This document shows, one piece after another, positions 16,121-59,544 of a stretch of 64,000 bases of DNA. A program made the translations under genes and the position numbers. The number at the start of each line of letters is the position of its first letter. Positions within the stretch are counted from its first letter, which is position 1. Below the pieces are notes generated by a model. The model was not told the origin of the DNA, did not search any database, and saw only the letters and a program-made list of their open reading frames with translations. Where the stretch lies: positions 7,874,501-7,938,500 of the forward strand of contig OX485805.1 of assembly GCA_950295325.1 (NCBI GenBank). The letters run 5' to 3'. The stretch comes from Polytrichum commune (Eukaryota; Streptophyta; Polytrichopsida; Polytrichales; Polytrichaceae).

Positions 16121-16272
16121 TAGATAAAACCCACTCGTCAATGCCATTAAAGCCCAAAGATGGAAAGTCAACCCACTCCTAGTCATCACCGCATGAGTAT
16201 GCAAATCCATGCATACAACATGCATTGAACTACTCAAAAGCCTACCATAACATTATTCAAATCCATACTAGT

Positions 16273-16385: not shown

Positions 16386-17656
16386 ATTGTTATGGATCTT
16401 AATAATGTTATGACATATAACCCCCAACATAATAATAATAAATCAATGGAGGTTGTTCACCGTATTGCAATAAAATACCTCACATATCTAGTCCTCAATA
16501 AGCAGAAACTAGATAACAAACAAGAACCTCTACAACAACCTGCATGAAGCCTTAAATCTATTTACTTCTCAAAATGAGCCCACCTATTGCAAATATAGGC
16601 CATGAACCCTACACGTGTAACAAGACAACTCTTGAACATAGTAGGGCCAACATGCTCAAATTTCATGTCAATGATATCATCGATGTTTATTTTTCTTTCT
16701 CTTCTTACCTTATGAGTGGGGCCAGTTACTTCTTGTGCCACATGTCATCACGTGCTTGGATGGAATCTCTTGAAAGATGATGTGCATGAGCCCAATCATG
16801 CACCTATATACAACATAAGATGTAATGGTTGTCGCCCCATCACTCCCCACCATTGCCCATCGTTCCGAAAAGGTGGGGTGTCCATGTTAATATGATGTGT
16901 CATATGCACGGTTGTAAAGGGCGGGGGTGGCACGGGTTTAAGCTATTGGATTTACATTGTAGCATCATGTAATAGTCACCCTCTGTAATGTCACTCCCTC
17001 TCTTATATCCCAAAACCTTGGGGAATGGATATGCTTAGTTTAAATCTCCCTCCTTGTTGTCACATTTCCCTCCCATAATAAATCACATGATGCGATAACT
17101 TAAACATGTCATGAAGTGAAACGGTGATAAAAGCGGCAACCACGTTGTTTTAGAGCTCATAAATTCTTATGAAATGATGTTAAATATCAATTGTGGCTAA
17201 ACAAACTAGGTAACCCTTGAGATTTGGGAGGGCCGATGGGGATACTGGACGTAAACATTTTGACGCCCTCTTCTCTGGACCTTCCAATCACGTAGATCGT
17301 CGGCTTAGATTGATGGAATGGGGAGGAGAGAGTTTTGCTTCGTGGGTAGCATTCTCTTCCCAAATCTCATAACGCAACCTCATTTACCAAATGGATACAC
17401 ACCCAAAATTGACATGAATAGGTACAGTAAACAATCCTAATAATTTAGGTGGAAAATTAGCATGGAAATAACTAAACATGGTCCACACTAATTTTTTTGA
17501 AGTCAAGGATTTAACATGGGTCCAAGACTCCAAGTCTTCCCTAAGTGTTCATCAACGCTTCCAACCAAACACAATAAACATCAATTACAAAGACAAAAGT
17601 AGCACCAAATAAAACGATCACTCACACTAACTCTCAAACAAAACAACTAACACAAC

Positions 17657-22364: not shown

Positions 22365-22862
22365 GGGCCACTTCACAAGTTCACACACGAGCCAAGAGCC
22401 GTGACCATGAAATTGTGGGAGCCCAAAAGAAAAGTGTCCAAAGGCCGTCCCAACACACCTCCAAACTCGTGTAGTGTGGTCACGGACCCCCAAGTGTAGT
22501 GTGAAGTCATATGTGATCAAATGCTATTTCAATGAATTTCTATTCACGCGGGTCTTCACAGGTGATAAAGTAGAATAAACCAACGGTTGTGAGCGTTCGG
22601 AGTGCCATGGTCTCCTGGTTTTGTGTTAGGCTTACTTCCAAGAGACGGTTTTGGAAAATAATCCAAGTGACCATGAAACATGATCCATTCGATGCTCTAT
22701 AGGAATTCATGTAGACTTTACATCCATCCTCTTGCATTCACATACTCCGTTGGTCCCTCGAGCATAGTGTGAAGCGAACTTAGACCGGCTCTGCCTTTTC
22801 CACCAATGAGAGTGCTTGAAGTGAAATGTCACGGGCTCTCAGTCTCGTGTGTGAAGTGGCCC
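22365..22862. mobile_element. Tourist-like (PIF/Harbinger-type) MITE, family A copy 1
   Basis: The left end is GGGCCACTTCACA and the right end is TGTGTGAAGTGGCCC, flanked by TAA on both sides (22362-22364, 22863-22865). The interior is non-coding and nearly the same as copies at 24457-24963 and 36055-36552, which suggests recent movement. A short duplication (TTCACAAGTTCACACAC) disturbs the left end. The right TAA is also the left TAA of the family B element that starts at 22866. Confidence 0.75.
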
Positions 22863-22865
22863 TAA

Positions 22866-24291: not shown

Positions 24292-24456
24292 TTAATCACC
24301 ATCCACAAACTTCTATCCAATTGACCTGAAGCCCGTTCACTGGCCCAATTTTAGAGCTTACTAGCGCTATGAAAGTGGCTGTGATGCAAGGGAGTCTTGA
24401 GCAGGCCATTGAAGGTTTGCAGCTTGCCCATGCAACCGTTGAGGGAGATAGTCTCA

Positions 24457-24963
24457 ATGCCACTTCACACACGAGCCAAGAGCCCGTGACCATGAAATTG
24501 TGAGAGCCCAAAAGAAAGTCTCCAAAGGCTGTCCCAACACACCTCCAAAACCATGCAGTGTGGTCACGGACCCCCAAGTGTAGTGTGCAGTCATATGTGA
24601 CCAGGCCCTCAACCAAATGCTATTTCAATGAATGTCTATTCATGCGGGTCCTCACACATGATAAACTAGAATAAACCAACAGTTGCGAGCGTTTGAAGTG
24701 CCATGGTCTTCCAACGGTGTTGTGTTAGGCCTACCTCCAAGAGGTGGTTTTGGAAAATAGTCCAAGTGACCATGAAACATGATCCATTCGATGCCATGTA
24801 GGAATCCATGTAGACTTTACATCCATCTTGCATTCACTTATATACTCCGTTGGTCCCTCAAGCGTAGTGTGAAGCAAACTTGGACCGGCTCCACGTTTTC
24901 CACCAATGAGAGTGCTTGAAGTGTGATGGTCACGGGCTCTCAGTCTCGTGTGTGAAGTGGCCC
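24457..24963. mobile_element. Tourist-like MITE, family A copy 3
   Basis: The left end is GCCACTTCACACACGAGCC, lacking the first GG. The right end is CTCGTGTGTGAAGTGGCCC. TCA lies on both sides (24454-24456, 24964-24966). It is inserted in a coding-like frame. Confidence 0.72.
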
Positions 24964-25144
24964 TCAATGTACAAGCTGCCCAAGACATCACCCAGTGGGC
25001 CATCACCGAAACAAAGTGCGAAGATATCCCGGACCACTTGAACCCAAACCGACGACTCCTTATGTATGCGCTCCTGCTTCCGAATCTCGAGGTCCCTAGT
25101 CCTCTGAATTTGAGGATGCCTTCACTCTTCATCTTCAATGCCTG

Positions 25145-27045: not shown

Positions 27046-27130
27046 CACTAAATATCATATTTAGTGTAGTGCCCAACTGGGGGTTGAAGGGGTTCGACTC
27101 CCCTCACTACACTAAATATGATATTTAGTG
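27046..27130. repeat. Two facing 26-bp perfect inverted ends around a T-arm-like loop
   Basis: 27046-27071 and 27105-27130 are exact complements and correspond to the CACTACACTAAAT ends of the MITE family at 27105-27419. The 33-base spacer contains AGGGG TTCGACT CCCCT, the shape of a tRNA T-arm with a TTCRANY loop. Confidence 0.75.
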
Positions 27131-27419
27131 TTTGATACACTAAATACAAACGCATACACTAAATGTCAATAAGCTCATGAAAGTAAGTAAAATTAAATGT
27201 GAACTCACACACTAATTATCAACAATGGTAATATGTGGAAGTTACATGTTTGAATTTAGTGTTAGTAGGATATGAAAAGAAAAATAACAATGATAAAATG
27301 AGAATTCCAACATATCTTCTAACACTAAAAATCAAGGAATTTAAAATTAGTGTTGAGCAGGGTAGGGTGGTAACAACATTAAATATAACTAAACACTAAA
27401 TACCATATTTTGCGTAGTG
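27105..27419. mobile_element. MITE with CACTACACTAAAT ends, family F copy 1
   Basis: The left end is CACTACACTAAATATG and the right end is CATATTTTGCGTAGTG. Inner repeats of ACACTAAAT occur throughout. Three related copies (29239-29568, 34254-34357, 35223-35635) share the order ACACTAAATGTCAATAA, GTGGAAGTTACATGTTTGAA and AGGGTGGTAACAACATTAAA. The CACTA start suggests the CACTA (CMC) superfamily, but no 3-bp target duplication was seen. Confidence 0.65.
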
Positions 27420-29238
27420 GCCGGGCTAAGTAGTGAAAATACCATGAAATGCTTGGAGAAGAACTTTTTTTTTTTTTTTGCCCAGTCGTCCACCGGGTTA
27501 GCATGTTGGATAACCTTGATTTGTAAAACTTTGAGTGACCAAAGCAAGAGTGATTTTCAACATAACCTTGCCTCAACATAGGCCAACGACATTTGAACAA
27601 GTAGGAATGATGCATGTTAGATCCAAATATAGAATTTGGAAATTTCTTGCTTGTTGTTTTATTGTCTTTGAATGTATGCAATAATATGCAAGGTTCAATG
27701 TAGTCCCCTCGTCCAAAAACAATAATATATCAAGCTAAGGGGTTGCCCAAAACGAGTAACCCACACTTAGTGATCAATTCATGATCACACAACAAGCCAA
27801 TATGTTTTTCTTTTTTTCCTCCTCACAACATTGAACTTGGAGTTGGTTATCTCCATCACTTCACCCTTTAGAAAGGAGAAAAAAGGAGCAATTTAGCCAA
27901 CCCAAAATGTCAGCGAGGGAGGGAGAGGTATGAACCGATCTATCTTGGAAGACGAAGAGTTGATAAACCCTAAAGGTTTCAGTAGAATCGTTTCAAATTC
28001 TCTAAATCAGTTGAGTCCAAAACATAAGCTCATCAAATGGAATCTATATTTCTTTTAATGATAGACATGATTGTATGGATATGAGCTTTGTAGAGTTCAA
28101 GTCTTCACACACATTTCCACCCATGCACATGTCCAAAATTGGAAGATTGTAATGTAAATGTGTATGCTAGTCTTTTTGGGCAACGATGATTGTGCGGACA
28201 AAAACATCCGTCTCGAACTTTAGGGGTTACGTTAATCAGACACCTAATAAGCATCCATGTCTTTGTGAGAGGTCTGAGGAGGGGGGGGGGGCTTAATTAG
28301 CCAACAAAAAGTTCGTGGTCATCAGGACGATTGATGTCGGGGTGGGGATATGTGTTTATGGAGTAGTGATATACTTTTATGTGTTTAGTAAGTGGTTTAT
28401 CTTCATGCAGCAAGCACATGCATGATAAAGGTAGTGCTCACCACCAAAATCTACCTTCAAGAAACACCTCCGGTTGCTTTAAATGATCGTATGTCCTTGA
28501 AATTTAGAACATTTCCACAAACACAAAAATTCAGCTTGTAGAGCCTTTTCAAGCGATTTCCATAGACACTGGATTACCTTCTAACTCTTAGCCATTTGGG
28601 CACATTTGGTGGCCATTCAAAGATCAACTCCCTTTCATATCAAGTTATGAATTCTATTCCCCTCGGTTCTTGGTCATAGGAAGTGAGATTGCGCTTTATG
28701 AATTCGCAATTCCAATAGCTTTTGGTGTATACCTTGCCTTCAACTATGCGTGAAAGAATGATACCGAGTGGTTGAAATCTTAAAAGCAGTTGTGTTTTTG
28801 AAAGAGCTCGCCAACGGAATATGCCACCTCCACTTATGACGACTTTTTCGATTTGGACCTTGGGAATGGGTTACAATTGTGTGACTTTACGTACCATGAT
28901 ATTCAAAGGTAAAGTTTGAGTGGTGTGTGGTTAGGTGTGGATTTCAAATGGACACCAAAATGATATGCGCATGGAAAAAAGATTTGACTACATGTTTCAA
29001 ATTTGGTAACCTTTATAGGTTCATTGGTTGACAGAGGTAATTCAAGAAGAAAGAGAATCTTCAACTTCGTAATGGACAAGATATTCATTTCAACTTCAAA
29101 GATTATGAGGAAAATGGATACGGCCTTGATTTGGATTTGCTACTCATCTTGTAACCCACCCTTTTACCATAACCAACACATGTGCTTTGAATACATGATT
29201 ACAAGAAAGTTCACAAACCTTGCTCATTAGCACCAACA
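27420..29238. other. No gene recognised
   Basis: AT-rich DNA. A poly-T run occurs near 27468 and a poly-G run at 28281. A fragment of family D (GGTGTGTGGTTAGGTGTGGA, about 28920-29170) is present. No open frame with a domain. Confidence 0.4.
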
Positions 29239-29568
29239 TGCCTACACTTAAAAGGGTATTTAGTGTCTGATACACTGAATAAGAACGCGTACACTAAATG
29301 TCAATAACCCTATGAAAGTAAGTAACATTAAATGTAAACTCAAACACTAAATACCAACTATGGTAATATGTGGAAGTTACATGTTTGAATTTAGTGTTAG
29401 TAATGATATGAAATCCATGCTTCACATAAAGGAAGGTGGCAGTGGGGAAGGTAGCGGCACATTTATGTCTAACACTAATTATCAAGGAATTGAAAAATAA
29501 TGTTCAACAAGGTCGGGTGGTAACACCATTAAATATCATCAAACACAAAATATCCTTTTGGTGTAGTG
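29239..29568. mobile_element. MITE family F copy 2
   Basis: Left end CTACACTTAAAAGGGTATTT (degenerate), right end TTGGTGTAGTG. The interior matches copy 1 and adds a block CATGCTTCACATAAAGGAAG that is also present in copy 3. Confidence 0.6.
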
Positions 29569-32106
29569 GAAAAGGAGAAAAAGGGAAAAAAAGGTAAAGA
29601 AAAACAATGAGTTCTAGATCACGGCAAAAGCAAAACATTCCCTAGGCACCTGGTGCAAGTGCAAACATGTGATTACACTACAGAAGAAGAAGACCTCTTG
29701 ATAAAGGTTGTTCTCTTCCACATGTGCACGTAACCTTTTCTCATACATCCTCGGGGGCGGGGGGGGTAGTCATTGGTTGGAGTAGCAATATACGTGCAAA
29801 CAAATGATAGGGTATTTTAAAAACATGGGGGCTAAAAATTATAAATGGACTTAAGAGTAATATAGGGTATCAAAAATGGCACTGGACATTTTTAAAGTAC
29901 TATAGGGTATGGAATAATAGGTAATTTGGAATTATAAGTAATGCAAGCCATTTTTCTATTAACCCAAAGTAGAAATTTACATAATGATAGCATGTGAAAA
30001 AAAGAAGAGAATTGAAAGTAATACCCCCCTATAAAATAGTGGTTGTTCGCACCTATATCCTTAACTTTTTAACACACTGCCCCCCCCCCCCCCCCCCGAG
30101 CATACATCTCAATGTTGCAGCAAACTAACATGAATTACATGAGGATTATATTTTCCTACTCATTACAAACAACTATCCACATCTCAATTCAAGCTTACCT
30201 ACACATGACGTTTCCTCCCCATAGTTCACATGGTGAAATGAACCAACAACCAATAGGGCATTTAATAAATGTCTCTAGTGCCCCCCCCCCCCAAATTGAA
30301 TAGTGCCGCCCACTTTCAATAAATGTGTGCCATGTCAGCATATTTGTGTGCCATGAAGGACAACTGGACCCCAACGGTAAATGACAACTTGGTCATAGCC
30401 TGCCACATGGCAGCCTTTTTGGACGAGTTACTTTTACTTGTAGTAAGCTTTTTTTTTAATCCCAAGGGCCCCTTTATGGAGCTCGTACCACATGTTTTTC
30501 TTCACTCACTCACTCCCTCCACAAGGTGGCCAAGGAGTACCACACGTGCCTTTTGTTGTCGGCGCTTCCAACTCCACACACACTTATTAACCCTTCAAAG
30601 TCAAGAATGCCTTCCTTCTTTTCTTTTTCTTTTTCTTTTTGGGCTGGGCAATCATCTCAATCTGATAATACCAACGTACACGTTTATGTTATAATCCTTT
30701 TGATTTTAAACACATGAAGAGCTAAAATCTTTTATGAACAACATAATTTTATATGAAGATGTCATTCGTATGGTCAGATCCGTGACCCCGAGAGGTGCGT
30801 ATACATGTTTTAATAAGTCGTTGGATTGTAGTGAATGTTTTTAAGCGATTTTGGGGAGGTTTCGCTTTGGCCTTTAGGGATTAAGTATGGTTGTTTGAAT
30901 GTCTCGTGAGTCGACTCACCCAATTAGCAATTACGAGTCACACATATTGTCATTTTAAATTTGAAAAATCGGAGTTGAGATGCAAAAGTTACAAGAGCGA
31001 TCGTTGAAATGTAATTTTTGTCATGACCCCTTTTTTTGAAGAGGAGACAGATGTTTTCAATGACAAAAAGAGTTTGATGATCACATAAGGCCTTCTTGAT
31101 TGTGCTGACTATTGAACCTATATGGTGTTTATATTTTGAGGACATAATCCAGTTTCATTGTAAACACAAATGACCATGACCACCATTGTCTAAAATCTCT
31201 CATTGGTTGTGAAATGAGTGGCAGTCCCACTACATTTAACACCAGATCACCTAAAATAGAAGTGACCATGGGTGAGAATGTTCGAATATGGATTAGAAAG
31301 TGACAAGGAAGTGACATGGCATCCTACATGGCCGAAAATGGATATTATTTGGTGCTCATCCCCTGGAGGGTGGACTTTTTATTGGAAACCTAAATGACGT
31401 GCATGCGTCAATATGAAATTAATCCTCCTATATATGAGATGTTTATAGAGAACATCAAATGTATATGTACTAACGGCACGCTAGAAAATGGACCCATGTA
31501 TTTATATTAAGCTTTTCAATTTAATGTGATAAATGCCTCCATTACATATACAAAATAAAAGCTATGAACTAAATAGGCCTTTATTACTAATAAAATCCAC
31601 TTTCACTATCCAATGAGAAAGTCATTGAACATTTTTTTTTCATTCATAGCATGTAAATCAATGATTGCATCAAACAAACAAAGGCAAGAGCATAGTAACT
31701 TATCCATAATCCAAAGAGCAAATCTCAACATAGTCCATGAGCGCTCCAAGAGCCTCTAGTTTGTAAAACCTGAAACCCAAATGCAAACCTTAATGAGAAT
31801 GTACAAGGTAGTCATTGAGGACTATCACCATATGACGACAATAGATGAAATCGTGATTTGGATGAAACTAACACATACATCGTCAAATTTTCATCAAAAC
31901 CTTACATCCCCCTTTTGTACATTTACCTTCAATTCTAAATTCCTAATAGCATTTCTTAAATGTACACTAGAGAAATATAAAACCTCTTTCTTATGTATAT
32001 TATGTACGTCAATGCCTCAAATAATACCCCTTCTTACACTCGCGTTAGTTCGTACGTTGTATGAATGCCCTTTCATGTTTGTTGTCAATTCATGAGTCAA
32101 TTTGGC
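29569..32106. other. No gene recognised
   Basis: Intergenic DNA with poly-G at 29756, poly-C at 30077 and 30282, and a family E fragment near 30915. A hAT-like MITE relic at 31361-31625 is listed separately. The frame 30323-30694 has no domain. Confidence 0.4.
31361..31625. mobile_element. Partial hAT-like MITE, inverted relative to the copy at 10922-11349
   Basis: Begins CCCTGGAGGGTGGACTTTTT, then TTGGAAACCTAAATGACGTG. These complement GGTTTCCAATGAAGAGTCC and the DNA next to it at 11310-11347. Later blocks (GATAAATGCCTCCATTACAT, AGGCCTTTATTA) also match. The far terminal repeat was not seen. Confidence 0.5.
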
Positions 32107-34253: not shown

Positions 34254-34357
34254 CTTCTAACCTTAATTATCAAAGAATTGAAAATTAGTGTTGAGCAAGG
34301 TAGGGTGGTAACAACATTAAATATAATCAAACACTAAATATCCTATTTAGTGTAGTG
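34254..34357. mobile_element. MITE family F copy 3, right part only
   Basis: Runs from CTTCTAACCTTAATTATCAA through GTTGAGCAAGGTAGGGTGGT to CCTATTTAGTGTAGTG. The left half is absent. It lies inside family B copy 3. Confidence 0.6.
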
Positions 34358-34782
34358 ACAACACAAGGTACATGTCACATGTAAATTACATTGAGCATGT
34401 ACAAATTAAATTGCTCATTTTATTTTATTTAAAAAAATTGTTGTGAGAAGATTTGCAAGCCACATCTTCGACACATTTAACAAGAAGTGAAGACAAGTGA
34501 AGACAAGTGAAGCCCAAGAGAAGACAAGGAATGATCAAACTTAATTTTTTTTCAAAATTGCCCTTTTTAGGCATGTATTAAAAAAATCAGCACCTTCACT
34601 TTTTGGTGTGTGGTCATTCCTCTTGGTCCACATTCGGTTTACACCTAGTGAAGGGCCCATGAACCATGAAAACTAATATTTTAGTAACTCGGACCATGGA
34701 AGTCGTCCCATGAAGTCGTCCCACGCAAAATAGGCCTCTTACGTGGGACGACTTCATGGTCCATAGTGTAAACCGCCCCTTA

Positions 34783-36051
34783 GCTGATCTTACACAAGAA
34801 TTCAGCTATAAAGACCCCACGTTAGTCTAGTTCCAAGTCATTTGAGATGAATTGGCCACAAACATATAGGGGGTCAAGTTTTCATGTTGGATGAATGAGA
34901 CCCAGATGAGATACACGCTCGTATGTGATATATCCTTCTTCCCCTTTATTTCGGCTAGGGATTCATGATGACTATTTAATCTCATCCATTGTGTGACTAA
35001 AAACGCAATGGTTTATATTATAACCTATAAATGATCATATAAAAAACCGATTTCCAAAAAGAATATTGAAGACCCCAAATTAATGTAGTGGGTTGTAGCT
35101 AAAACGAGCCGGCCCTCAATCTTATAGGGGACTTGATTTTACTAGAACCCCCTCATCCATGATGGATGAGTTTACAGAAAGACACCCTAAATCCCAATCA
35201 CTTGAATTATATTTGCTTAGTAGACTACACTAAAAAAGGGATATTTAGTGTTTGATACACTAAATACGAACACATACACTAAATGTCAATAACTCTATGA
35301 AAGTAAATAACAATAAATGTAAACCCAAACACTAAATATCAACATGGTAATATGTGGAAGTTACATGTTTGAATTTAGTGTTAGTAAGGATACGAAAAAA
35401 ATGCCATCGACTTTGGCAGATGAGAGATCGACGAGCAGGAATGTGGGGCGCCATCTCTAAAATCGCAAGTCCAGTGACATCCATGCTTCACATGAAGGGA
35501 GGTGACAGCAAGGAAGGTAGCAACACATTTATGTCTAACACTAATTATCAAGATTTTGAAAACTAGTGTTGAGCAGGGTAGGGTTGTAACAACATTAAAT
35601 ATAAACAAACACTAATTTTTTTTTTTAATGTAGTTGCTTTCAAGTTGAATGCTTGGCAAGTTCCAAGAAACAAAGTAGAAATTCCTAACCAATAACCTAA
35701 TACAAGTGCCCAAATTTCAATGAGGTGGGGGGAGCCAAGAGGCTAAGAAGTTTCTCCTAGTATGTAAAGAACCTTGGAAGCATTTTCCGTGCTTTGAGGT
35801 GAAATAGTTTCGGGAGTGTGGTGTTCCGGGATGCATTGCTAGAGAACACCATAGATAAGTAAGATGCAAGTGAGTAAAAGGGAAGTGACCCAAAAATATG
35901 CCCACACTTTTTCCCTACGTTGCTTCCAAGTAGCTAAGAAGTGAATATATCCAAATTAAGACCAACTAGGTCCTATATATACGATGTGCATGAGAATAGA
36001 AAATAAGAAAAATAAAATAGAACCTCAGTGGTTTTTACCCCAATGTGAATA
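34783..36051. other. No gene recognised; holds MITE family F copy 4
   Basis: Apart from the family F element at 35223-35635, the stretch is AT-rich and closed in all frames. Confidence 0.4.
35223..35635. mobile_element. MITE family F copy 4
   Basis: Left end GACTACACTAAAAAAGGGAT, then TTTAGTGTTTGATACACTAA as in copy 1. The right end is decayed (AATGTAGTTG after a T run). A ~100-base GC-richer block in the middle (CGACTTTGGCAGATGAGAG) is absent from copy 1. Confidence 0.6.
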
Positions 36052-36054
36052 TGA

Positions 36055-36552
36055 GGGCCACTTCACGCACGAGACTGAGAGCCCGTGACTGTTACACTTC
36101 AAGCACTCTCGTTGGTGGAAAGGGTGGAGCCGGTCCAAGTTTGCTTCACACTACACTTGAGGGACCAACGGAGTATGTGAATGCAAGATGGATGCAAAGT
36201 CTACATGGATTCCTACATGGCATCGAATGGATCATGTTTCATGGTCATTTGGATTATTTTCAAAAATCATTTCTTGAAAGTAGGCCTAATACAAAACCAG
36301 GAGACCATGGCATTCCAAACGCTCACATCTGTTGGTTTAATCTATTTTATCATATGTGAGGACTCACATGAATAGACATTCACTGAAATAGCAGTTGATT
36401 GAGGGCCCGGTCACATATGAATTCACACTACACTTGAGGGTCCGTGACCACACTACATGATTTGGAGGTGTGTTGGGACGACCTTTGGACACTTTCTTTT
36501 GGGCTCTCACAATTTCATGGTCACGGCTCTTGGCTCGTGTGTGAAGTGGCCT
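36055..36552 (-). mobile_element. Tourist-like MITE, family A copy 4 (inverted)
   Basis: Ends are GGGCCACTTCACGCACGAG and CTCGTGTGTGAAGTGGCC, flanked by TGA (36052-36054, 36553-36555). It is in the opposite orientation to copies 1 and 3 and nearly the same length and sequence. Confidence 0.72.
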
Positions 36553-37652
36553 TGAGCCCGTTGGTCTTATAATGTACCCATGGTTTGTCATGTACTACTT
36601 TAAGGGTTTAATACCTCCCTTGCAGCAGGTGGGTTCAATTATAAAGTGCCCTAGACTCATGAGGTTTTTGAGACGTTTCAAAATCTAGGATAAAAGAGCT
36701 TGTTCCTCTCTATGAGAGAGAAAGCTTCTTAAGACAAAGTTGTTCATAGAAAATCAAAGTATAAATCTACACGGTTGGTGTTCATAGTGAAGCTTATAAT
36801 CTTTAAATGGTCATTATGAATGGGTTACAAATGAAAACATCTCATAAATGTATTTGTGACTTTTGGTAATAACCTATCACATGCTACACTAACTCTCTAT
36901 TATCATGCATCCATGTTAACACTATAAACCTCCTCAATATCATGTGCACTTTGGTTGCCACAAGCATGATATTGGGGAGGTTAGGATGTATTTGCAAATC
37001 CCAGGGCCGGGTGTGTATTGGGTGGGTGCAACCCGGATCGATAAGTTTCTATCGGCATACTGTAGAGGGCTCCCTATTCCATCTTTCCATGTGTCAGAAT
37101 GTAGTTTCCACATGAGATGCAAGTGGGCCGTGACAAATGCGAGCATGTTCGATGGGATAATAATTATGTTGTGTCGGAATAGGGAGCCTGCTAGGGTATT
37201 TATCCTTAAGTCCAAAGTTTTTTGAAATGTGAGATTGTCCGATTTAAATACATATGTTTTACACATATGAAAAGAGTGGAATAAGCATTTTGCCTACATT
37301 AAGTTAATGTCCTAGTTGGAAATTTTGACTTAAATACACTTTATGTAGGTGCAACATACAACATAACATACATGATATTATCCCATACATGATAATGTGG
37401 GGAATATCCAAGAATACTACATGGGATATTGTCAGTCCCACAGAACAAGCTTGTGTATGTGAATAATGTTATGAAGAAAGAACTTATCCCAAAAGTCCCC
37501 TTAGACCTCCTCAACACTTTAAAGGTTAGTGGGGAACCTACCAATAAAAAGAAAGAAAGACTTCATAATCCGTTGGCCACATTAACACCACCAGTATGAT
37601 ATATTGATACAATCCTTGAGAGATTGTCCCATACTCTATTGTTTTGAATTTT

Positions 37653-46079: not shown

Positions 46080-49000
46080 TCAATGCCTGAATTGTGCATG
46101 AAGTTGGTCAAGTTGCTGTGGTCGTTTGTACCGTTTAAGCAAGAGAGATGAGCACACCACACTTACAGAAGATGCGGCCATGGCTGCCCCTGCTACCCAT
46201 GGTGGTAATCGAAATCCGGTGCCTGGAAAGAGCACACCGGCTGCGATGGGAATGCCGAGCATGTTGTACCCAAGAGCCCACATATAGTTAAGGCGGATTC
46301 GACGGAATGTTTTGCGTGACAAGTCAATTGCTGTGATGACATCCTCCAAGTTACTCTTCATGAGCACAATGTCAGCAGCTTCAATGGCAATATCTGTCCC
46401 TGCTCCAATAGCCATGCCCACATCAGCTGCAACTAGCGCTGGCGAGTCATTGATCCCATCGCCTACCATCGCCACGGTGAGTCCTGTCGACTGCAAAGGA
46501 TAAAGACACTCGACCTTCAGGTTACCAAGTTTTTACTGATGGAAGAAGGGAATTACTTTGAAACCAAGCAAAGCAAGCCTTTATACACAAACTAATGGTA
46601 TCAACCGTCGTAGACATGAAGAATTGGAGACTGTCTACCTTTTATAAAAAATTTAGATGCCATCCCAATTTTTTGACATTGCCACCCAATTCCTATCTAA
46701 AGATGCTCTACTTTGGGCCTTTAGGAGCCCGAAGTGGCAACTCCTGTGATTATCATACAAGATAATCATGCTTTACTACACCTTATTGAGGATTCAAAAC
46801 TATTAAAACACAAAATTATTAATGTGGATGTATACAAAACACCAAAGTAAATTCCTGAATATAAAAATCAGTGCATACATACAAGAATAAGCTGCCAAAA
46901 TTGGAGTAGCATAACACAGAAAAATACAACTGCAGGGGGTCCTCACTGCTTTTCAGATTATTATTGTTAATAATAATAATTAGACAAACCTGTAAATGAA
47001 CTTCAAATGATGTATTTTTATGTAGGGAATTCTCCTCTTTACAAATTGGCTTATCCTCCAACATCTTGTATAGGTAATATGTGCATATTAACATATTCTA
47101 GATGCATAATCGACTCCAAAAAGCTAATATTATTGGAGGACCCTTGCAAGTCATATACATAAAAACTGCAGTAAGCAAAGGTAATTTAAGGTATGCAAAT
47201 TGTAAAAGTGTGTTAACGTACATTAAGTATTTGTTCTTTTTTACTTTTTCAATTCAAGGAATTTTATTTAGATTTTTTTGAGGAGTTGCCCCCCTGGGTT
47301 TAGGAAGTTGTAAAATGGGTCAAGCTTAAATTGGTTCCAACTTCAACAGAAACCAACTCTGATGGCCATCTTGTAGGAAGAGCTCCTGGAAGAAAGAAAA
47401 AAAATTGGGACATAGGATACCTGAAGCTCTTTCACAATCCTAGCCTTGTCCTCAGGCAGCACCTCTGCCCTAACGTACTGTTTCTCAATCCCCACTTCTC
47501 CTGCAATGGCATAGGCAGTCCCCCAATTGTCACCTGTGACCATCATGCTTTGCACATCCATTGACTTGAGAATGTTGATCACACTTGCTGCTTCTGGTTT
47601 CACAGGGTCAGATATGGCAATTTCTCCAACAAGCTCCTCTTCAATTGCAACCAATACACCTGTTCTTGCCACTGTTTCGGTCTCTTCCAAGTGTAGTTTT
47701 GCCTCATCAGACATCTCAATACCGGAATCCTTCATCAACTTGGGGTTCCCAATTAGAACTATTTTGCCTCCCACCCTACAACGCACGCCATGTCCAGCAA
47801 TGGACTCAAAATTGAGAACCTCGTATTGTTGTTGATCTTCTTGAGTCAAATGATCACCTTCAATTTTTCTCCTATACTCCACAATTGCTTTTGCTAATGG
47901 GTGCTCACTATTGACCTGCATGAGCCACAAGCACGCACTTGTGATGACAGAGAAGAAACAAGTATCTCCAATGAGAAAAGATAGCATCTTTTCTTCTTTT
48001 AAGAAACCAGAGGAAGAATGGAAAGCAGAATGCCTTTAGAAGGGCTTCAGAATCAAATTTTCTTTCTCTGACTTCTATCTTAAAGATCAATAGGTTAAGA
48101 TGCAGAAATTGATACAAGTCATGATATAAAGGGTTTGACAACATTCATGTGTCAATTGCCTTCAGCTTCTAGATAAAGTTCACCATTGCAGCATAACATG
48201 GTTACTTTTGTCAGCCTTGTAAGAGTAAAAATCAACCATTGATCCAATCTAACGTTAAGTGTCAAAAAATAGACATGATAGTTACCTCGGCAGCTGAAAT
48301 TATCTCATAAAAGACACGAAGGGCTATGTTCTTGTAAAGCTTGGTGCCAACGACAATGGGTCTACCAATTGTAAGAGTCCCCGTCTTGTCAAACACTATT
48401 GTCTTAATCTGCATAGGGCCACACATGTTGATGTTAAGTAGTTGAAACAGAACTGTCGTACATTACAATGAGGGAGGTGACTTGTCACTCCAAGAAAAAT
48501 TTCAGCAATAGACAAAAAACGTATGGCAAGTTCAAGAATGAAGTTTCTTAGCCATATTCAGCTTCGGTCAAATACACAAGCATTGATTCCAACTTTCAAA
48601 AATAATTCTGTGAAGAAAAGAATGGAACCTCAAACATGTGAAATAGTAGCAAATCATGTATAAATCGAAGATCCATTCTCCAAAGATATTCATAGACAAA
48701 CACTATTGGAATCTGTTCAGTGCACATTTCCAAATGCATTAACAAGAAACACACGAGGAACATAAAGTGAGGCATGGACTCAGGTGACGTTGTGAATCTT
48801 GCCTTATGAGCGGATTCAAGCGCCTGACCACCTTTAATAAGGATTCCTTGAGTGGCCCCTTTGCCAGTGGCTACCATGACAGCAGTTGGAGTGGCAAGGC
48901 CTAGTGCACAGGGGCAAGCTATCACGAGCACTGAGATTCCAAATTGAAGGGCTAGCTCAAACTCATCCATTGACGATGGTATCCATTTCTTTGGATAGGA

Positions 49001-52000
49001 ATTAGCTTTACCAGCAGCATACCATCCCAGCCATGTCAAGACCGAAACTATCACCACCTGCGATGGTCAATTATATAATTCAGGCAGAGTAGAATTGCAT
49101 AAAAGTACATCTTCCAGCTACTTGTACGATTTTCTTTTTAGCAGACTTCTAAGTTTTACACAAGCTCTAAAAGTCACAAAAAGAATAGCGGGTGTCAAAT
49201 TTTATTCTGGGTTACTGCAAAAGCATCAATACTGATGAAAGTCTATGATATATGCTATGAAAAGTCAACCATAAGAGATCAACTGATTTTGGATTTTTGA
49301 AGTATTCACTTTTTGTTCTGAGTTTTTGCTACACTTCACGTAACCACTCTGCTGGACGGACATTTAAATGATCTGAAAGTTAACCCATATATGTTTTCTT
49401 ATAACATAAGAATTTCTCTGGAGAGTCAAACACTTTCCCAAAATAAATGTCGATTGATGGTCATCATCTCAATAACCAACACCAATATTGTCATGAACTG
49501 TACACATGGGAGGAACAACTCTTCTTTCTAAAAAATGTGGCTTTGCAATAAAGATATATGCTAGTTTAATAATCAAATGACATTGAGACCCACTAATGTA
49601 CTGAAAATTATCTCTTGAGAGGCACTGAGATCAGTGAAAGGAGCTTAGCGGTGCAGTTACCTCACCAGAAAAGGAACAAAGAAGAAGCGATCCTCTAAGA
49701 ATATGGTTAACATTGGACCTCTAAGAATATTTATTCCTTGTTAGGGACAGAAACTTGTAGGAGAGTGAAGTTATTACAACAGTGAGGAAGAACATACCAA
49801 AGGCACAAAATACTTCGAGATGAGATCTGCAAATTTCTGCACTGGAGCCTTAGCCATCTGAGCAGCCTCCACCAAGCGCACAATCTGTGACAATGCCGTC
49901 TCTGCTCCAACGTGGGTTGCCTTTACATGTAGTACACCATTGTTGTTCATGGTTCCACCTATCACTTTATCGTCAAGTCTCTTTGCAACAGGGCGAGCCT
50001 CCCCAGTAATCATACTCTCGTTCACAAAGGATTGGCCCCACACTACCACGCCATCAGTGGGTACCTTGGAACCTGGCACAACCTTTTCAATTAAAAGGCA
50101 AAGTCTGTTATTGTCTGGTGAAGGGCAATGGTTTCCTTAAAATAGCTCCAAATCTAGCTGAAGTAAATTGAGGAAAAGAAACTATGTTCTACTCAAACTT
50201 CAATTTTTTGTTTTTGGATTATGTTAGCCAAATCCATTAGTTTCAATAACATTAAATAATGTTAATAAAGTGGTACCCATGCGCCCACCTACTCAAAAAT
50301 CACCAAAATTTTTTAAACAACCGGTGATTGGCCTGCCTATGATAAGCAGATAGATCAAGAGTCACTCAGGTACCCTTAATGTGCCATTTAAGAGTTGACT
50401 ATGGGAAAGAGCACATATGCACAGAAAGACAGAAGAGCCGATGAATGGTTTATAGAAAGCTAATTGGAAGCTTTTAAACTTAAGAGTTCATAATCAATCA
50501 ACAAATTTTTCCCATTCATTTTCACGTACACATTGAAGTTATCCTCTAACTCAACAGAATTGTGGTCAGAAGTTGGTTGTAAGACCTTCCATTTTCGGTG
50601 CATGTGGAGGTTTGAACGAAGAACATTCTACATCGGTTCATTGAGTGTCAAACTCATTTTGGCATGCCAAGAGGTGCTAAAATGAGTTTGGCCCTCAATG
50701 AACTGAAATAGTTTGCTCTTCATTCAAATTCAAACACTACCTCCAACCATGCACCACAATTGAAAGAAATAATTGATAGTGTATGCAAACCAACCAATGG
50801 AAAATCATTGGGGACCAATTCACAACAGAAAGTCCCATTGAGTTAAAGGATAACTCTAATAGAGGATGGCTAGCAGAAATTTTATTTTTATCTGTACCTT
50901 GATGATGTCTCTCCTCTGGATGAGTTGAGAGCTGATCTCTCTCTCCTGCACAACGATGCCCTGATCATCCAGAGTGAGCAGGGTGGCCGTGTCAGGAGCC
51001 AGGTCCATGAGCTTGGATATGGCTTCAGATGTCTTTCCCTTCGCCAAGACCTCCAGATACTTCCCCAAAAGAATAAAGGAGATCAGCATTGCACTGGTTT
51101 CAAAGAAATCTGTTCCTTTGAAACTGGGAGAGGTCGCTGCCCGCACCACCGTGTACACAGAATAAAAGTACGCTGCATTTGTGCCGAGCACAATCAGCAC
51201 ATCCATGTTGGCTGAACCATTACGGAGCGCTTTGTATGCCCCAACATAGAACCTCCTCCCAATACCAAACTGCACCGGAGTCGACAAAATCCATCGCAAG
51301 AGGGCGCCGATCGTCAACATGTTCACAATCGTCTTGTCCAGCCCTTCCATGATCCCTGGTATGTACATGAAAACCATGGAAAGCAGGAACACAGGAACAG
51401 TGAAGACACAGCTCAGGTAAAATAGGTTTCTGTAGTCTTTGATCTCCCTCCTCCTATCAGGGCCTCCTTCTCCGGGGTTCGCATGCAATTTTGCCTTGAA
51501 CAGACCTATAGAATTTGTCTGCTCAATGACTTCAATGAAACACCTTGGCCCTGTCCTGTCTGGGTCGTAAGCAACTTCAGCCATGGTACCAGTGTCATCC
51601 AATTGTACCAATGTAACTCCAGGCAGGGCTGCCAGTGATACTTTGATAAGCTCAATATCTTTGGGGGTGGAAAGACCTTCGAGCTGCAAGCGCACTTTGT
51701 TCCGTTCCTCTCCTGCACTAATCAGGTCAACTTCATACCCGAGGTCGTCTATGGTACTCATGAGTTGAACATGGGTGACAAGTCGCGGGTCATAGTGTAC
51801 CTCGGCTTCTTCGGTTGCAAGGGCTACTACTGCTTTCTTCACTCCTGGAAGCTTGTTGAGACCTGTCTCTATGGCGTTGGAGCATGATGTGCAGGTCATG
51901 CCTTTGATTCGGAAGCGACCTATTGTAGCACCAAGACCTCCGTCCTCAGTGATACAAACAGCTTCAAATCCTGCGTCCTCAATCGCCTCGCGGATTGTTT

Positions 52001-53460
52001 CCTCCTGTGATATATCCCACGACCTTGGAAAGTGAGAGTTATGATTTCGCTTTACACAAGCTTATACCAGGCTTGTAAGCCACTTTCCAGAGAATTGATG
52101 CCAAAATTATTGCGTCACATTCAGACGCCACGGCGTGCTGGGCAATTTAGAAAACATATCAGATTAACTTCACTACAAATCACAAGCAAAAAACACCACA
52201 TTAATGACTGAATATTACTAATTCTGTGATTGTTGAGACTGGAGTAGAACTAGTGGGAATTAAAAAAAGTTCACAAAAAAATCGAATCTACTGGAAAAAT
52301 GAAGAATTGTGCGCTGTGTAGATAAGACCCGGTTCGTGCCTTCTAGAGACAAAGTTTCAGAATTCAACAGACACAGCCGGATTCTCTATTTCATGTGCCA
52401 TGTACAATAATCTACAGGTAGCATCCACCAGACTGTGTGTTTATAGTTTAGGGTAGTTCAGCTCCAACAAGGAAGAGTTACATCTCAAATGCAAGTGACC
52501 AGCGTTAAATGTTGAGTCTATGCGCATACCTACATAGCCTTAAAGTGTTTAATATATTTCAGGTGATAACTCGACATTTAGTGACTGGTTCGTTCAACAT
52601 TGATTCAACTCACAAATGGAACCCTTTAGGTCTTGCAACTATGAAGTAATGAAACAAAAAATTAAAATTGCAATCTGGTTTATGTTTGGTAGGAATTTGA
52701 TTCAATGTTGTAGGATGATGCGAAATAATCAGTCTTGGTATATGAATTTAGAAGTTTGTGATGTGGTGCACTTTACCTCAACAAAAGCAGGCCGATATAC
52801 TACTTGAGCCCTGTTTTGCAGAACAGCCACTGAGGCGTCCTCTATACCAGCCAATCGCTTCACTGCTTTCTCTATCGATCCCGCGCACGCCGCACATTTC
52901 ATCCCCATTACCTACATTCCAGATTCCGATAAGAGACTCACCCTTGATGTATATAATGTAGCTAATACAAATATGTTATGTGTCCTAGGGAAGGGGGCAG
53001 CATGACGATCGTCAGAAAACTCTCAGCATTAAGATTGTGAATTTTCTACCTCAAGGTGGGTGATCCAAGAGTATTCAGCAACACAATTCAACCATATCCA
53101 GATTATAGTCAATAATAAACTTCTCTTGATTTTCTTGGTGAAGAAAAGGTGGAAACCTTTCTGTGAAGGGTGATGAGTATGGGAAACCCTTAGCAGGCGG
53201 CAACATGATAGTCATCATGTAACTCTCAGCATTCAATGTTTTGAACTTTCTCTAGTGCTGCTAAATCTTGAAGAACATAATCATACCTGGAAAGTTGCCT
53301 TCCGGACAAGTGAGGCATCAATGTCGGTAGGAGTAGGCGAGGGTGGAAATCGCGGCATTGAAGGATACCGAGGTGAAGGCAGGAGCACCACCTTCTCGGT
53401 GGCCGGCGCCTGTTCATCATCGTTCCTCTCAATCACTATCCCCATGATGGATGTACTCAT
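46080..53460 (-). CDS. Cu+-transporting P1B-type ATPase, HMA5/RAN1-like
   Basis: Pumps Cu(I) out of the cytosol. Eight coding exons give 994 residues: 53287-53460, 52777-52911, 50898-52004, 49798-50082, 48803-49057, 48286-48408, 47421-47915 and 46080-46490. All seven introns are phase 0. Two N-terminal metal-binding domains: [10 protein letters not shown] (Cys64, Cys67) and [10 protein letters not shown] (Cys141, Cys144). Then membrane helices, actuator TGE (498-500), transport motif CPC (615-617, in [13 protein letters not shown]), phosphorylation DKTGT (Asp659), SEHPLAKA (His698), TGDN (820-823) and GDGINDSP (868-875). The C-terminus ends in the final two helices and QFRH. The start ATG lies 58 codons before the first splice and in frame. 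Length fits HMA5-type pumps, and all catalytic residues are present. Intron 5 has a GC donor (AAG|GCAAGA). HMA5 and RAN1/HMA7 cannot be separated here: plasma-membrane or endomembrane location is open. Upstream, a leader intron probably ends at 53617 (TTTCATATTTCAG). Confidence 0.95.
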
Positions 53461-55990
53461 TGTTGCCGCTCTTGATTGTCAGAAAAGAACTTGTCGCTGT
53501 ATTTAGAGAGCTAGGTCATCACAGTGAGGCCGCAGCAGCTCTTAGTCGACCGCGACGACTCCGCTGGCAGTCTGGTTGGGGTACAAGGTGAACATGCCCA
53601 CAGGAGAAATCTTAACCTGAAATATGAAACACCGTGAATACAAAAGAATGGATCGTCTCCCAACTACTTAAGCAACAATGCTCCTACACCTACTTGAAGG
53701 TTCCTGCTTCAATTTCCTAAATCGGAAACCTGGGACCGCCTTAATCGCAAGAATAAAAAAGCTTGTCAATCCAAAAGGGAACTGGAAAAAGGGAACTGTA
53801 GAGGAGACCGATTAATGAAACTCGTGCTTCAGCAGTACATTGCCGAGGATAACTGTGGTGGTGCAATAGAAATTGATGTAACTTAACTATAGTAAACATG
53901 AACGAAATTTGATGAAAGCAAGGAGGTCAACCTTTCGTATGTTGATGCAACCTCCAATCTACACAAACATAATTCTACGTTCATGTTTATATATAGCCAA
54001 CAACAGGAGTTTGGTGCGCAATCCGAACTTCTGGCTGCAAGCAATTTTTCACGTATTGCTATCTATGTGGTAAGAACGAGTTGCAAAGTGTCAAATACAC
54101 AATAAACAATTTCCACTTACACCATAACATTGGCGAAAAACTTCAGGTATGGAAATTAGGCTCTCAAAACCCTTCGAGACAAACTCAAAAGAACTCACGG
54201 CAACACATTGAATCCTCGACAACAAGCTTACACCTAACAACAGGGGTTTAGTATGCAATCCAAACTTCTGGCTGTAAGCAATTCTTCGCGTATTGCTATC
54301 TATGTGGCAAGAACGAGCTGCAAAGTGAAGGCAAGTACACAATGAACAATTTCCAATTACACCAGAACAACAGGCGAAGCACTTAAGGCATGAAAATCGG
54401 GCTCTCAAAAGCCTGCCCCGTGACCAACTCATAAGAATATACGGACAACACGTTGAATTCTTGACAACAAGCTTATAGCCAACACAGGGGTGTAGTATGC
54501 AATCCAAACTTCTGGCTGCAAGCAATGCTTCACATATTGCTATCTACGTAGCAAGAAAGAACGACCTGCAAAGCGTAAAGTTAAACAATAATTTTCAGAC
54601 ACCAGAATAACATAGGCGACGCACATCAGGCATTGAAAATCAGGCTCTCAAAATCTTCCGTGACCAACACACAAGAATTCACGGACAACACGTTGAATTC
54701 TCGACGACAAGCTTATACTCGACAACAGGGGTTTAGATTCTCTCTAAACTTCTGTCTGCAAGCAATTCTTCACGTATTGCTATTTCTACGTGGCAAGAAC
54801 AAGCTGCAAAGTGTAGGAAAATACATAATAATTTCCACGTACACCAGAACAACATAGACGAAGCACTTCTGGCATGAAAAAGTAGGCTCTCAAAAAGCCT
54901 AGCCCGTGACCAACTCACAAGAATTCACGGGCGAGACAACACAACACGTTTCTTGACAAGGCGACAATAGGGGGATAACGTTTCAGTATCTCCAAGAAAA
55001 GAGTCTTGGCCAACAGAACTAGGTGAAAAGAGAAATTAAATAAACCGAGTCGAAGAGAAAAAAACAGCACGACCAATGTCCAACTTCTTGCAGTGACCGA
55101 AATTTTTTGGTGCCACTTCCAGAATAGGAGAAAAGACATAGTGAGACCTCTCTCGCACTCTCAAAATACGAAAAAAAAAAGTACACGTCAACTACATAAA
55201 CCCTAGGTAGCAGAATTACGGCGAACCTTTATACGGATCGATGACACCGAATTGCTCCTGATTCAAAATGCTCCAAAATGCGCGTAACACACGAGAAACA
55301 GCAACAACAACCAGCGGGCCGGTTGCTCTCTCTTTCACTAAAAATCGTTATCGCAAACCGAAAGACGACGTGGCGAGCAAGCCAATTCACGCTCCAGATG
55401 AAATATCCCACTTCAAGAAGCTTCGCTGTGACCGCATTCGGCGCCGGACTGCACTTGCCAACTAACTACTAGTGATCCTTCGACAGCTTCTACAACCTTC
55501 GGAGGTGAACGCCTGGCGTCGGTCTTGGGATGAATTTGATGCTTCCCGGGGTCCACAATCGACGATCCAACCAGCTCCGAAGTGTGGGGAGTGGATCCAG
55601 GTGAGCTCGAAGTTCGCGGTGGTTGCCGCTTCGACGAAGATTTACAAACAGTGTGTCGTTCAATTGGCATGCAACCAAAATGCCCTTGGGCGCTTCGAAT
55701 TCTGTGATCAGGTAACGTAGTTTGAAGATCCACGGTGGGTGCTATTTGTCATCGACGCAATGCCGATATGAGATGAGCGACTCTACTTCACTTAGCTTCA
55801 AGCCATTACTCAGCATTTCTCAGCCGATGAGCTGTGTTCCGGGGCCCAGCACTAGATTCCAGAATAAAGCCTCCGGATGCCGGAGTTTCACTGCTCTTGT
55901 TCTCCCTCTTTATAGTATGACACGCTTCGGAAACACCAAAAAAATTGTATTATCTACGTGTCGTCTTCTCATCAATTATAGGACAAATGT
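53461..55990 (-). promoter_or_regulatory. Leader and upstream region of the copper ATPase gene
   Basis: A good acceptor (TTTCATATTTCAG, last base 53617) suggests a leader intron, with 53461-53616 as leader exon. The repeats at 53997-54972 then lie in that intron or the promoter. From about 55200 to 55740 the DNA is GC-richer and open in several frames on both strands, e.g. 55472-55720 (+) containing NAWRRSWDEFDASRGP and 55413-55733 (-). None shows a known domain. It may be the first leader exon and promoter, or a small unrecognised gene. Confidence 0.35.
53997..54972. repeat. Four ~240 bp tandem repeats upstream of the copper ATPase
   Basis: AACTTCTGGCTGCAAGCAAT recurs with few changes at 54026, 54263, 54507 and 54747 (spacing 237, 244, 240). 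Each unit also has TATTGCTATCTA, GGCTCTCAAAA and GTGACCAAC, then ACAACAAGCTTA. The copies differ by substitutions and small gaps. Confidence 0.85.
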
Positions 55991-56289
55991 CATAAAATTG
56001 TCGTACTATTGAGGGAATACAAAAACATAAGTAATATGAGCTTAAAAATATATACGATGAGTTTAAGCAATGTAGATGGTATGAATTAATAACTTATAAC
56101 TCCAAACAAATACAAATATTTTCAAGAGCTCTTGAAATAAGAGTCGAAAGATCCATGGTGTTGCCTACCCAAGTTAGCAACTGTCATCTTATCTAAATTT
56201 CCTATGAACTTTTGAAAACTAATAATTTCATTAATACCAAAATATAAAGACTTTTCTAACAAGAAACTAGACAACAATAATGGGAGAAT

Positions 56290-57516
56290 GTTAAGTCCCC
56301 CCTCTCCCCCCACAAACTTTTCGGGGGAGGAATATTCGGGCAGGGGCAGCCGCCCGTCCGAAAAATCAAGGATTTTTGGACCCGACCGAAAACTGCTGCC
56401 AGCCCGCCCGACTTCGAAAAAACCATTGCCCTTGCATTTTTGAAGGCCACTTATCCACAAATCCCATATTGAGTGCACTTCATCTTCAAGAACCCAAATC
56501 CAATATTTATGTTCACTTTCATTGAGAAAGTAAGCAATTGACTAGGATTTCATTTTCAGAGTGAAACCACCAATAAAGCATGTAATTAACTTGGAAATAA
56601 AAAATACCTCAAAATCCTCATTAGCATTAAGGTTATAATTTGATGACTTACCATTGAAAGGGTCTTTGTCATTCTAAAATGGAATTAAAATTAGTAATTT
56701 ATTTTTAATATGTTAAATATTATAGTCTAGTGAATACCTTCTACTTTCACAAAGTTTTCATACGCATTTAAACTAATTAAGTGTGATTGAATGTAAATAA
56801 GTCTAATCAATTCTCATTAATTCTCATTAAGCCCAATTAAATCAGAAATATGATTACCAAATAAATTAAGCCTAATTAATTATAAATATATTTACTGGAG
56901 TTAATTCCAGTAAATAATGATTAATTCCAGTAAGTACATTTTATAATTAATTAGGATTAATTAATTTGGTAAGCATATTTCTGATTTAATTGGGCTTAAT
57001 GAGAATTAATGAGAATTATTTACATTCAATCTCACTTAATTAGTTTAAATGCGTATGAAAACTTTGTGAAAGTAGAAGGTATTAACTAGACTATAATATT
57101 TAACATATTCAAAAAAATTACCAATTTTAGTTCCATTTTAGAATGACAAAGATCCTTTCAATGGTAAGTCATAAAATCATAACCTCAATGCTAATGAGGA
57201 TTTTTTGATATATTTTTATTTCTGAGTTATTACATGCTTTATTGGTGGTTTCACTTTGAAAATGAAATTCCAATCAATTGCTTACTTACTCAATAAAAGT
57301 GAACATATATATTGGATTTGGGATCTTGAAGATGAAGTCACTCAACATGGAATTTGTGGATAAGTGGCCTTCAAAAATGCAAGGGCAATGGTTTTTACAA
57401 AGTCGGGCGGGCGAGCAACAATTTTCGGTCGAGTCCAGAAAACCTTGATTTTTTGGACGGGCGGCTGCCCTTCCCGAATATTCCTCCCCGAAAAGTTCGT
57501 TGGGGGGGAACTTAAC
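56290..57516. mobile_element. 1.2 kb near-palindrome (foldback element), arms ~600 bp
   Basis: The left arm starts GTTAAGTCCCCC and the right arm ends GGGGGGGAACTTAAC. The two arms are mirror images throughout: e.g. TTCGGGGGAGGAATATTCGG facing CCCGAATATTCCTCCCCGAA, TTGCATTTTTGAAGGCCACT facing AAGTGGCCTTCAAAAATGCA, and GAATACCTTCTACTTTCACA facing TGTGAAAGTAGAAGGTATTA. The centre is near 56903 (CTGGAGTTAATTCCAG). The arm ends include GC-rich, gene-like DNA (GGCAGCCGCCCGTCC) unlike the AT-rich core. Coding capacity is doubtful: a 118-codon frame (56122-56478, minus) crosses the left boundary. A transcript through it would fold into a long hairpin. No target-site duplication is clear. Confidence 0.8.
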
Positions 57517-59544
57517 GTCCTCTATAATGATGAATGACGTTTAGCATCAAGATACTAGTGATACTATATCACCCGTGTACAAGGCAACATACTAGGTAGG
57601 AGGCCACTCCGACCCTAACCATGTCCATTCTACACTAGTAACCCTAACTATTATTAAGTTCCCAATGATAAGTGAAGTTCCCAAGTAGTTCCCAAGTGAA
57701 AATGAATGTATTTTAGATGTACATAACATAGATGAAAGGAATTTTAGCATTAACTACCTCGTTAATATGACAAAATGGAGATTATGATGCCGCATTATCA
57801 AGTGTTGTAGTCGTAATATCGAGGGTGTCATATAAACGAGTGTCGCATTAACGAGGTTAGACTATATCCCATTGCTTCATGCTTAGATAACATTAAAATT
57901 TTAAATTTCATCCGGTTTCAGCCAAGAAATTGCTCAAAATTGTGTTGAGGAATTGATGTTGACCCACAACTTTTCGCACTATTACAGCCAAAGATGCTGA
58001 CATATGGTGTTTGAACTAGCTGGTGTGATCAACCCCTCATACTAAACCTAAAGTCAGAGCAATTGAACACAACTCATCAGTTGATGCCCCAATCACACCA
58101 ACTTTCTATCAGCTTCCAGATGTGAAATAATTAGCCTACAAAAAATGCACTTTCAGTTTGGTGTGATCAAGGCATGAGTTATGTTATGTTAAGGTTGAGG
58201 CATCTATATCTTTTAAAATAAGAGAGTTTTCATTTGTTTAGGAGGAGTAAAGCGGGGAATTAATTTTCTTGTGAAGAAAAACAAGAAAATGGTAGAACCG
58301 TGAGGCTCTGTCCTTTGCTATGAAAGACTACAATTGTAGCTGATTACTTTGCTCACGCCAATCCATGGCTATTCACTATACCAAACCTTTCTTGGATTTT
58401 GTGCACCTTCTTCTCAAATACAGGTCAAGGATTGAAGCTACTCATTTATGACCCGAAATTTTTAAAATAAATAATCAAGAACTGCCACATTAACTGTAGT
58501 TAACTAGATTTCTTTCAATGCATTTTAGGGAGCACTTGTATATATATAAAAAAAACTATAGTTAACATACACAATACATAAAGTGGACCAAAATAACAAG
58601 AACAAGTAACGTCCAAGTGTGAACACAAAGTGGTTAGGAAATTTGCTCTTGAAACGAAGAAGTTGATGCATAGTCTCTGTCCTACAGACAAAGCCAACAA
58701 ATTCTAAGGAGAATGCAATTTCATTATTTTTATAAATTTTTTTCGTGAATATGGAAATTGCTACAAATCTTGAAGCGGTAAAGTTAGGATAACACATAGT
58801 CAATCTATAAGTTAACTCATAATCGCTCATCTAAATTGTAATGCTTGGCTATGACAGTTTTCAAAAATCTTATGATGGTAATCAATGAAAAGTTGCCACT
58901 ACAAAAACCTTAACTCCGTTTGCCTAAAGAATATAGATTTCATCCATGTTGGCATTACATGACCCTAGTGAGGGGTTAAATGGGCATGATTGATTATGGA
59001 TGCCTTGACCTTACATGGCAACACTCTCTTCCTTATTATTATATAGGTAAGCTATGTGGGTGTAATTTGGTTACTTTTCTTAATCGGACACCTAAGAGTA
59101 GACAAACCCATTTCCAATAGCATAAGCAATTTCACTAAAATGTAGTGCAGTGTGATAATGAAGTGTTTTTTAACAGGTCTAGAAATTATTATCACAAGGT
59201 ATAACCAAAAAAATCGCAATTTATTTTCAAGTTTTTGAAAATATTGTAAAGGCAAAATTCTCTCCCAACTCATATTCACAACATAGGTTGACATGTTTCC
59301 GATAACTAGGAGATAAAAACTTGAGTATAATTATTGCCCTCTTCAAGACATCTAAATTTGTGCCCTTTCGACTTACTTTTTCCATCATGCTAAATGTGAC
59401 GGCTACAGGTGTGATTCTTCATGGCTTTTCCATCATGTTAAGAAATGATGGTTGCATATGTGGAAACTCCAGTTTTAGGAGACTCTATGTAGTTAGATTG
59501 GGGGAGAGGGGGGATGGGGGGGGGGGGTATCGGAAATGAGTCTA
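57517..59544. other. No gene recognised
   Basis: AT-rich DNA. At 57750-57865 there are repeated TAACGAGGT strings (TTAACTACCTCGTTAATATG, GCATTAACGAGGTTAGACTA) resembling pogo-type MITE ends, but both ends could not be defined. A poly-G tract lies at 59516-59528. Confidence 0.4.

Follow-up and report, generated by a model that had tools for sequence, protein, structure and literature searches.

A dispersed family of 1.2-kb palindromes in Polytrichum commune, very probably non-autonomous foldback Mutator-like elements

Mutator-like elements (MULEs) have long terminal inverted repeats (TIRs) and target duplications of 8–11 bp (PMC6446971), and several systems close to the one described here are known from published accounts, cited here from excerpts. 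MuTAnT, a foldback MULE family of Medicago truncatula, comprises 218 related elements with a 9-nt duplication and counts among its relatives an autonomous element that encodes a mudrA-like protein (PMC4486113). In Tm1, a Mutator/Foldback family of root-knot nematodes, duplications of 8–10 bp were reported for 45 of 53 elements, the TIRs are 93.15% identical on average and MITE-like members exist (PMC3169594). FARE of Arabidopsis, a foldback whose two ends both carry long palindromic repeats, is now classed with the MULEs (per PMC4486113), and MULEs with tandem TIRs are non-autonomous elements that were amplified with duplicated long TIRs, the copies of which fall into separate phylogenetic groups (PMC3310237).

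The palindrome family examined here was recognized from one copy in a window of 64 kb, meaning the whole stretch of DNA analyzed (C3:7874501-7938500). It resembles MuTAnT in its long TIRs forming a foldback and in its 9-base duplication, but the first MuTAnT element is 292 bp long with 144-bp TIRs and the terminus GGGGTTTGCTAGAACA, whereas the window element is 1241 bp long with the terminus GGAGGACGTTAAG; MuTAnT furthermore prefers (TA)n microsatellites, whereas the duplications of the present family, by inspection, are without evident TA runs (excerpts of PMC4486113). Long foldback TIRs and 9-bp duplications are also found in Tm1, which differs in its animal host, in TIRs built of 13–15 bp tandem repeats and in its known transposase-bearing members (excerpts of PMC3169594). 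Tandem Repeats Finder detected no tandem array between positions 56283 and 57523, so that the arms lack this trait of the FB/Tm1 type. The likeness to FARE is drawn from its published description (per PMC4486113), and MULEs with tandem TIRs differ in that their TIRs are in tandem and not fused head to head as in the window family (PMC3310237). A literature search with four terminus strings retrieved no paper on this terminus, the results being unrelated by title.

Alignment of the inverted arms bore out the preliminary description of a palindrome with GC-rich ends and an AT-rich core. At the ends first drawn the arms were identical in 535 of 576 ungapped columns (92.9%), with 25 transitions, 16 transversions and 25 gap columns, and the GC fraction of 75-base blocks was 0.49–0.56 at the element ends versus 0.19–0.32 in the core. 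Many family copies extend past these ends to the terminus GGAGGACGTTAAGTTCCCC, and because they continue outward in this way the window element is placed at 56283-57523, the first-drawn ends having been 7 bases short on each side. At the corrected ends identity was 92.5% (539 of 583 ungapped columns, 25 gap columns) with a longest exact run of 51, both identity values being above the 70% set as a floor when the palindrome was first described. The arms account for nearly the whole element (607 + 584 of 1241 bases), a foldback trait, and a chance palindrome is excluded because the other inverted pairs of the 64-kb window (at least 50 bases, within 3 kb) have arms of just 54–80 bases. The long hairpin expected on transcription was also recovered in silico, the element as one RNA strand being predicted to fold into a single long hairpin of -830 kcal/mol, a value given without a shuffled comparison. 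No Rfam match was found within the window, and searches of plasmids, viral contigs and prokaryote genome contigs gave no match. The features are collected in Table 1.

Table 1. Features of the palindromic element and its flanks (window positions)
Feature	Position	Strand	Evidence
Whole element, very probably a non-autonomous foldback Mutator-like transposon	56283..57523 (1241 bp)		Termini, arm identity, genome copies
Left arm (terminal inverted repeat)	56283..56889	+	Arm alignment
Right arm (terminal inverted repeat)	56940..57523	-	Arm alignment
Short centre between aligned arms	56890..56939		Arm alignment, fold
GC-rich transposon end, left	56283..56440	+	GC profile; genome matches
GC-rich transposon end, mirror of left	57365..57523	-	Arm alignment, GC profile
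Left target site duplication, ACAATAATG	56274..56282	+	7/9 with right copy
Right target site duplication, ATAATGATG	57524..57532	+	7/9 with left copy
89-codon outward frame, one stop, recurring in family	56407..56673	-	Frame search, codon test

Related copies were sought in the element's own assembly (408 Mb in 64 contigs, seven large ones of 42–78 Mb). Of 2678 first-look candidates the 40 best were scored, and the resulting 94 matches were grouped by hand into 40 places, all of which were extracted with 400 bases of flank; counting the window copy, the element is thus present in at least 40 places distributed over all seven large contigs, some copies being truncated and two composite. Compared with the terminus GGAGGACGTTAAGT, the window copy has two mismatches on the left and one on the right. 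A pattern search of the genome allowing one mismatch from GGNGGACGTTAAGTTCCCC returned 351 termini, compared with none for the reversed control; a TACCCC terminus variant with 76 exact occurrences in the genome belongs to the 351, since it lies one mismatch from the searched pattern. Among 168 of these at least 351 termini, 29 facing neighbor pairs were observed with spans of 154–1886 bases, 17 of them within 1180–1320 bases. A stretch of 155 bases of the left GC-rich end was matched at all 40 places scored (from 1955 first-look candidates), and this end is a probable transposase-binding region. Four size variants of 154, 399, 435 and 1839 bases all match the ends of the window element.

Target site duplications were analyzed in the 23 of 40 copies in which both ends were called at no more than four mismatches in 14, the other 17 being dropped. 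Flank identity at length 9 was 76.8% over these 23 copies, where shuffling gave 34% on average and 45% at most, and among the lengths 4–13 compared 9 alone stood far out, with a slight excess at lengths 6, 8, 12 and 13 (0.449, 0.478, 0.399 and 0.351 versus shuffled maxima of 0.413, 0.402, 0.373 and 0.348). The 9-base flanks matched fully in four copies, at eight positions in eleven and at seven in two, the window copy among them, while the remaining six copies matched at six or fewer. Four copies on C6 (L036-L039), together with L013 on the strength of its flanks, look like copies of a single insertion within duplicated DNA, and approximately 13 of 19 independent sites therefore have a good duplication. 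Six nearly identical copies of a single inserted palindrome (L019, L025 and L036-L039) lie at approximately 29.6–30.7 Mb of C6, with the related L013 at 33.1 Mb, and these six suggest a cluster of segmental duplications. Among the size variants, the 435-base member has a 9/9 duplication and the 1839-base member an 8/9 duplication, and the other two of the four have inverted rather than direct 9-base flanks. These two, L090 (C6:34873464-34873617, 154 bases) and L091 (C6:34931339-34931737, 399 bases), have inverted flanks CCGTCAGAG / CTCTGACGG and lie approximately 58 kb apart with flanks in common, as if the inverted repeat extended into the flank. The earlier impression that no clear target duplication is visible thus gives way to 9-base duplications across the family, imperfect in the window copy even at its true ends.

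Long inverted ends and 9-base duplications together indicate a non-autonomous foldback MULE. Both MULE traits are present, namely duplications within 8–11 bp, mostly of 9 (at least 7/9 in 17 of 23 copies), and long TIRs of approximately 580–600 bases per arm with termini conserved genome-wide; the element had been assigned to no known superfamily, and the family's duplications now point to the Mutator-like elements. It is highly probable that the element is a non-autonomous foldback MULE without a working gene that moved and had its arms rewritten as follows. In the best explanation of the observed copies, termini, duplications, arm lineages and sister arms, a Mutator-type transposase encoded elsewhere in the genome would bind the GC-rich ends, excise the element and reinsert it where the target is cut with a 9-base stagger, giving rise to the 9-base duplication. 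The family would have been dispersed as a ready-made palindrome with its two arms already diverged, and later, in some copies including that of the window, template switching or gene conversion between the hairpin arms would have replaced most of one arm with sequence from the other, restoring symmetry. The window palindrome belongs to a common class of element and is best treated as representing a new foldback MULE family; a striking palindrome is now explained as part of a family whose true ends and probable superfamily are given, together with a minimum copy number.

The history of the arms was reconstructed from a maximum-likelihood tree of 62 arms over 560 columns, representing the 31 elements left after near-identical ones were collapsed among the 34 in which both arms could be aligned. 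The best split (support 86) placed the two arms on opposite sides in 24 of 31 elements, a count reached by 8 of 3000 permutations in which the best split was chosen each time (mean 17.1). Since the arms of these 24 elements fall into two lineages, the palindrome was probably formed before the family's spread, most copies probably keeping two old arms. Sister arms were observed in six elements with support of 97–100 (100 for the window copy), a count reached by none of 3000 permutations, and one further element had both arms on one side of the split without their being sisters. Because their arms are sisters, it is probable that in these six copies, window copy included, one arm overwrote the other. 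Rare variants common to both arms numbered 5–7 in the six sister-arm elements (seven in the window copy) and 0–4 in the other 25, a count that shares sites with the arm tree and is not independent of it. A smaller tree of 19 elements gave 16 split and three with sister arms (43 of 5000 and 4 of 2000 permutations, respectively).

Raw identity separates the window arms narrowly. In the larger alignment they were 91.0% alike and the best other copy reached 90.5%; in the smaller alignment they were 88.0% alike and one arm was 89.7% like another copy, and in this set only one of the 19 elements had arms that resembled each other more than they resembled any other copy. The arms of L017 and L081 are more alike than those of the window copy, yet are not sisters, and L040, one of the six sister-arm elements, has a closer relative outside its own element by raw identity. 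Because of this narrow separation, confidence that the palindrome arose once and spread with two lineages, and that rewriting separately restored symmetry in six of 31 copies, window copy included, was lowered from an even balance to somewhat below it. Homogenization of inverted-repeat arms by template switching has been described (excerpts of PMC8604942). The main rival, considered rather doubtful, is that the window copy owes its sister arms to a fresh fold-back from one arm and not to the overwriting of an older arm; such an event would also yield sister arms in six of 31 copies, and the 435-base member does have one long and one short arm. However, the window copy has the usual family length, a short centre and two-ended 9-base flanks, traits that would be reached more easily by rewriting of an existing palindrome, although this argument is not decisive.

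The expectation that such a palindrome must be unstable unless young or selected fits poorly with a palindrome that seems older than the family's spread and a window copy whose symmetry seems partly restored. Should the overwriting of arms be correct, the family would constitute a naturally occurring assay, within a plant genome, of how palindromes are renewed, in which long genomic hairpins would be renewed and not only decay; the frequency of arm rewriting could be gauged from scattered copies whose two arms can be told apart, and arm likeness would be unsafe for dating foldback elements.

The 89-codon frame has at least 150 matches in the family (the best 150 of 4912 candidates being scored). 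Across 81 distinct arms, some of them from duplicated segments and counted at full weight, diversity by codon position was 0.103, 0.120 and 0.101 (P = 0.51), synonymous variants numbered 86 versus 82.9 expected and stops 31 versus 24.5; 21 of 50 gapless arms were free of a stop in this frame. Given that diversity is independent of codon position and that the synonymous count is close to neutral, the arms evolve, on the evidence of their sequences, as non-coding DNA with no sign of protein selection. In the window copy the frame weakly matches the SCD domain of cohesin in Pfam (E = 0.022), a match that was absent from all 10 related frames inspected, one of them having a different weak Pfam match (E = 0.1), and neither PDB nor NCBIfam yielded a relative of note. 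A by-eye resemblance of the frame to a MULE or piggyBac transposase was supported in neither case by Pfam, and a captured cohesin (SCC3) exon was dropped in view of the SCD result and the lack of codon constraint.

These results bear on the proposal that the palindrome is a captured and inverted host-gene fragment, akin to a Pack-MULE or a Mu-killer hairpin, silencing its parent gene via dsRNA. The recurrence of the frame across the family, the SCD match, the stable predicted hairpin (-830 kcal/mol) and the siRNAs associated with long MULE TIRs (excerpts of PMC6446971) are in keeping with such an origin, which is nevertheless improbable given that the SCD match is missing from the related frames, that over 81 arms neither codon position nor the number of synonymous variants departs from neutrality, and that PDB and NCBIfam hold no noteworthy relative. 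A parent gene ranking lower than the 150 matches scored, or an ancient capture free of constraint, would be compatible with these results. Because the four size variants share the GC-rich part, it is a transposon end and not a captured gene; the outer bases, thought at first to derive from a host gene, recur in other copies and in the short members.

A TTAA-targeting piggyBac-like element, whose duplication would be the TTAA found at 56291 and 57512, is very unlikely: the TTAA is symmetric at both first-drawn ends, but the terminus of other copies runs 8 bases beyond it, leaving it inside the family terminus, and a 4-base duplication at the true ends scored 0.348, within the shuffled range (maximum 0.446). 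Both TTAA and TA duplications had been considered from the window alone and were dropped once other copies revealed the true ends. Long palindromes are hard to assemble, but an assembly artefact is extremely unlikely, with arms differing at 41 of 576 columns and family palindromes present at many places with differing flanks.

An autonomous partner of the proposed non-autonomous MULE was sought using the MULE domain PF10551, which gave 142 matches in the genome (the best 150 of 271 candidates being scored). None of the 142 lay between two facing family termini among the 168 of at least 351 termini, and no transposase gene was found inside family ends among the termini examined. Five PF10551 matches lay inward of a right end within 15 kb, two of them separated from that end by its own partner terminus among the termini listed. 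Another of the five, a MULE gene that lies 5.9 kb from the family end, was rejected as an autonomous copy, since a 1.27-kb palindrome lies beside the gene and not around it.

Elsewhere in the window, two small foldbacks were observed, at 16246-16412 (80-base arms with 85% complementarity, spaced by 7 bases) and 50611-50728 (54-base arms with 81% complementarity, spaced by 10 bases). A dispersed repeat family at 27104-27420, 29242-29569, 34256-34358 and 35224-35634 has ends near CACTACACTAAA and inverted counterparts, termini reminiscent of CACTA elements, and a repeat of approximately 500 bases at 22380-22863, 24453-24966 and 36052-36556, with copies 88–90% identical, has inverted ends around CACTTCACACACGAGCC. 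Tandem arrays at 2593-3232, 5935-6626 and 53992-54930 consist of units of 153, 174 and 240 bases, respectively, in approximately four copies each. On the minus strand, a GH17 glucanase (PF00332) lies at 6690-8189 and parts of a gene for a heavy-metal P-type ATPase (PF00403, PF08282) at 46080-52911, genes that fit a plant genome. The palindrome lies approximately 3.4 kb upstream of the open frame at 52732-52911, which presumably carries a heavy-metal-binding motif.
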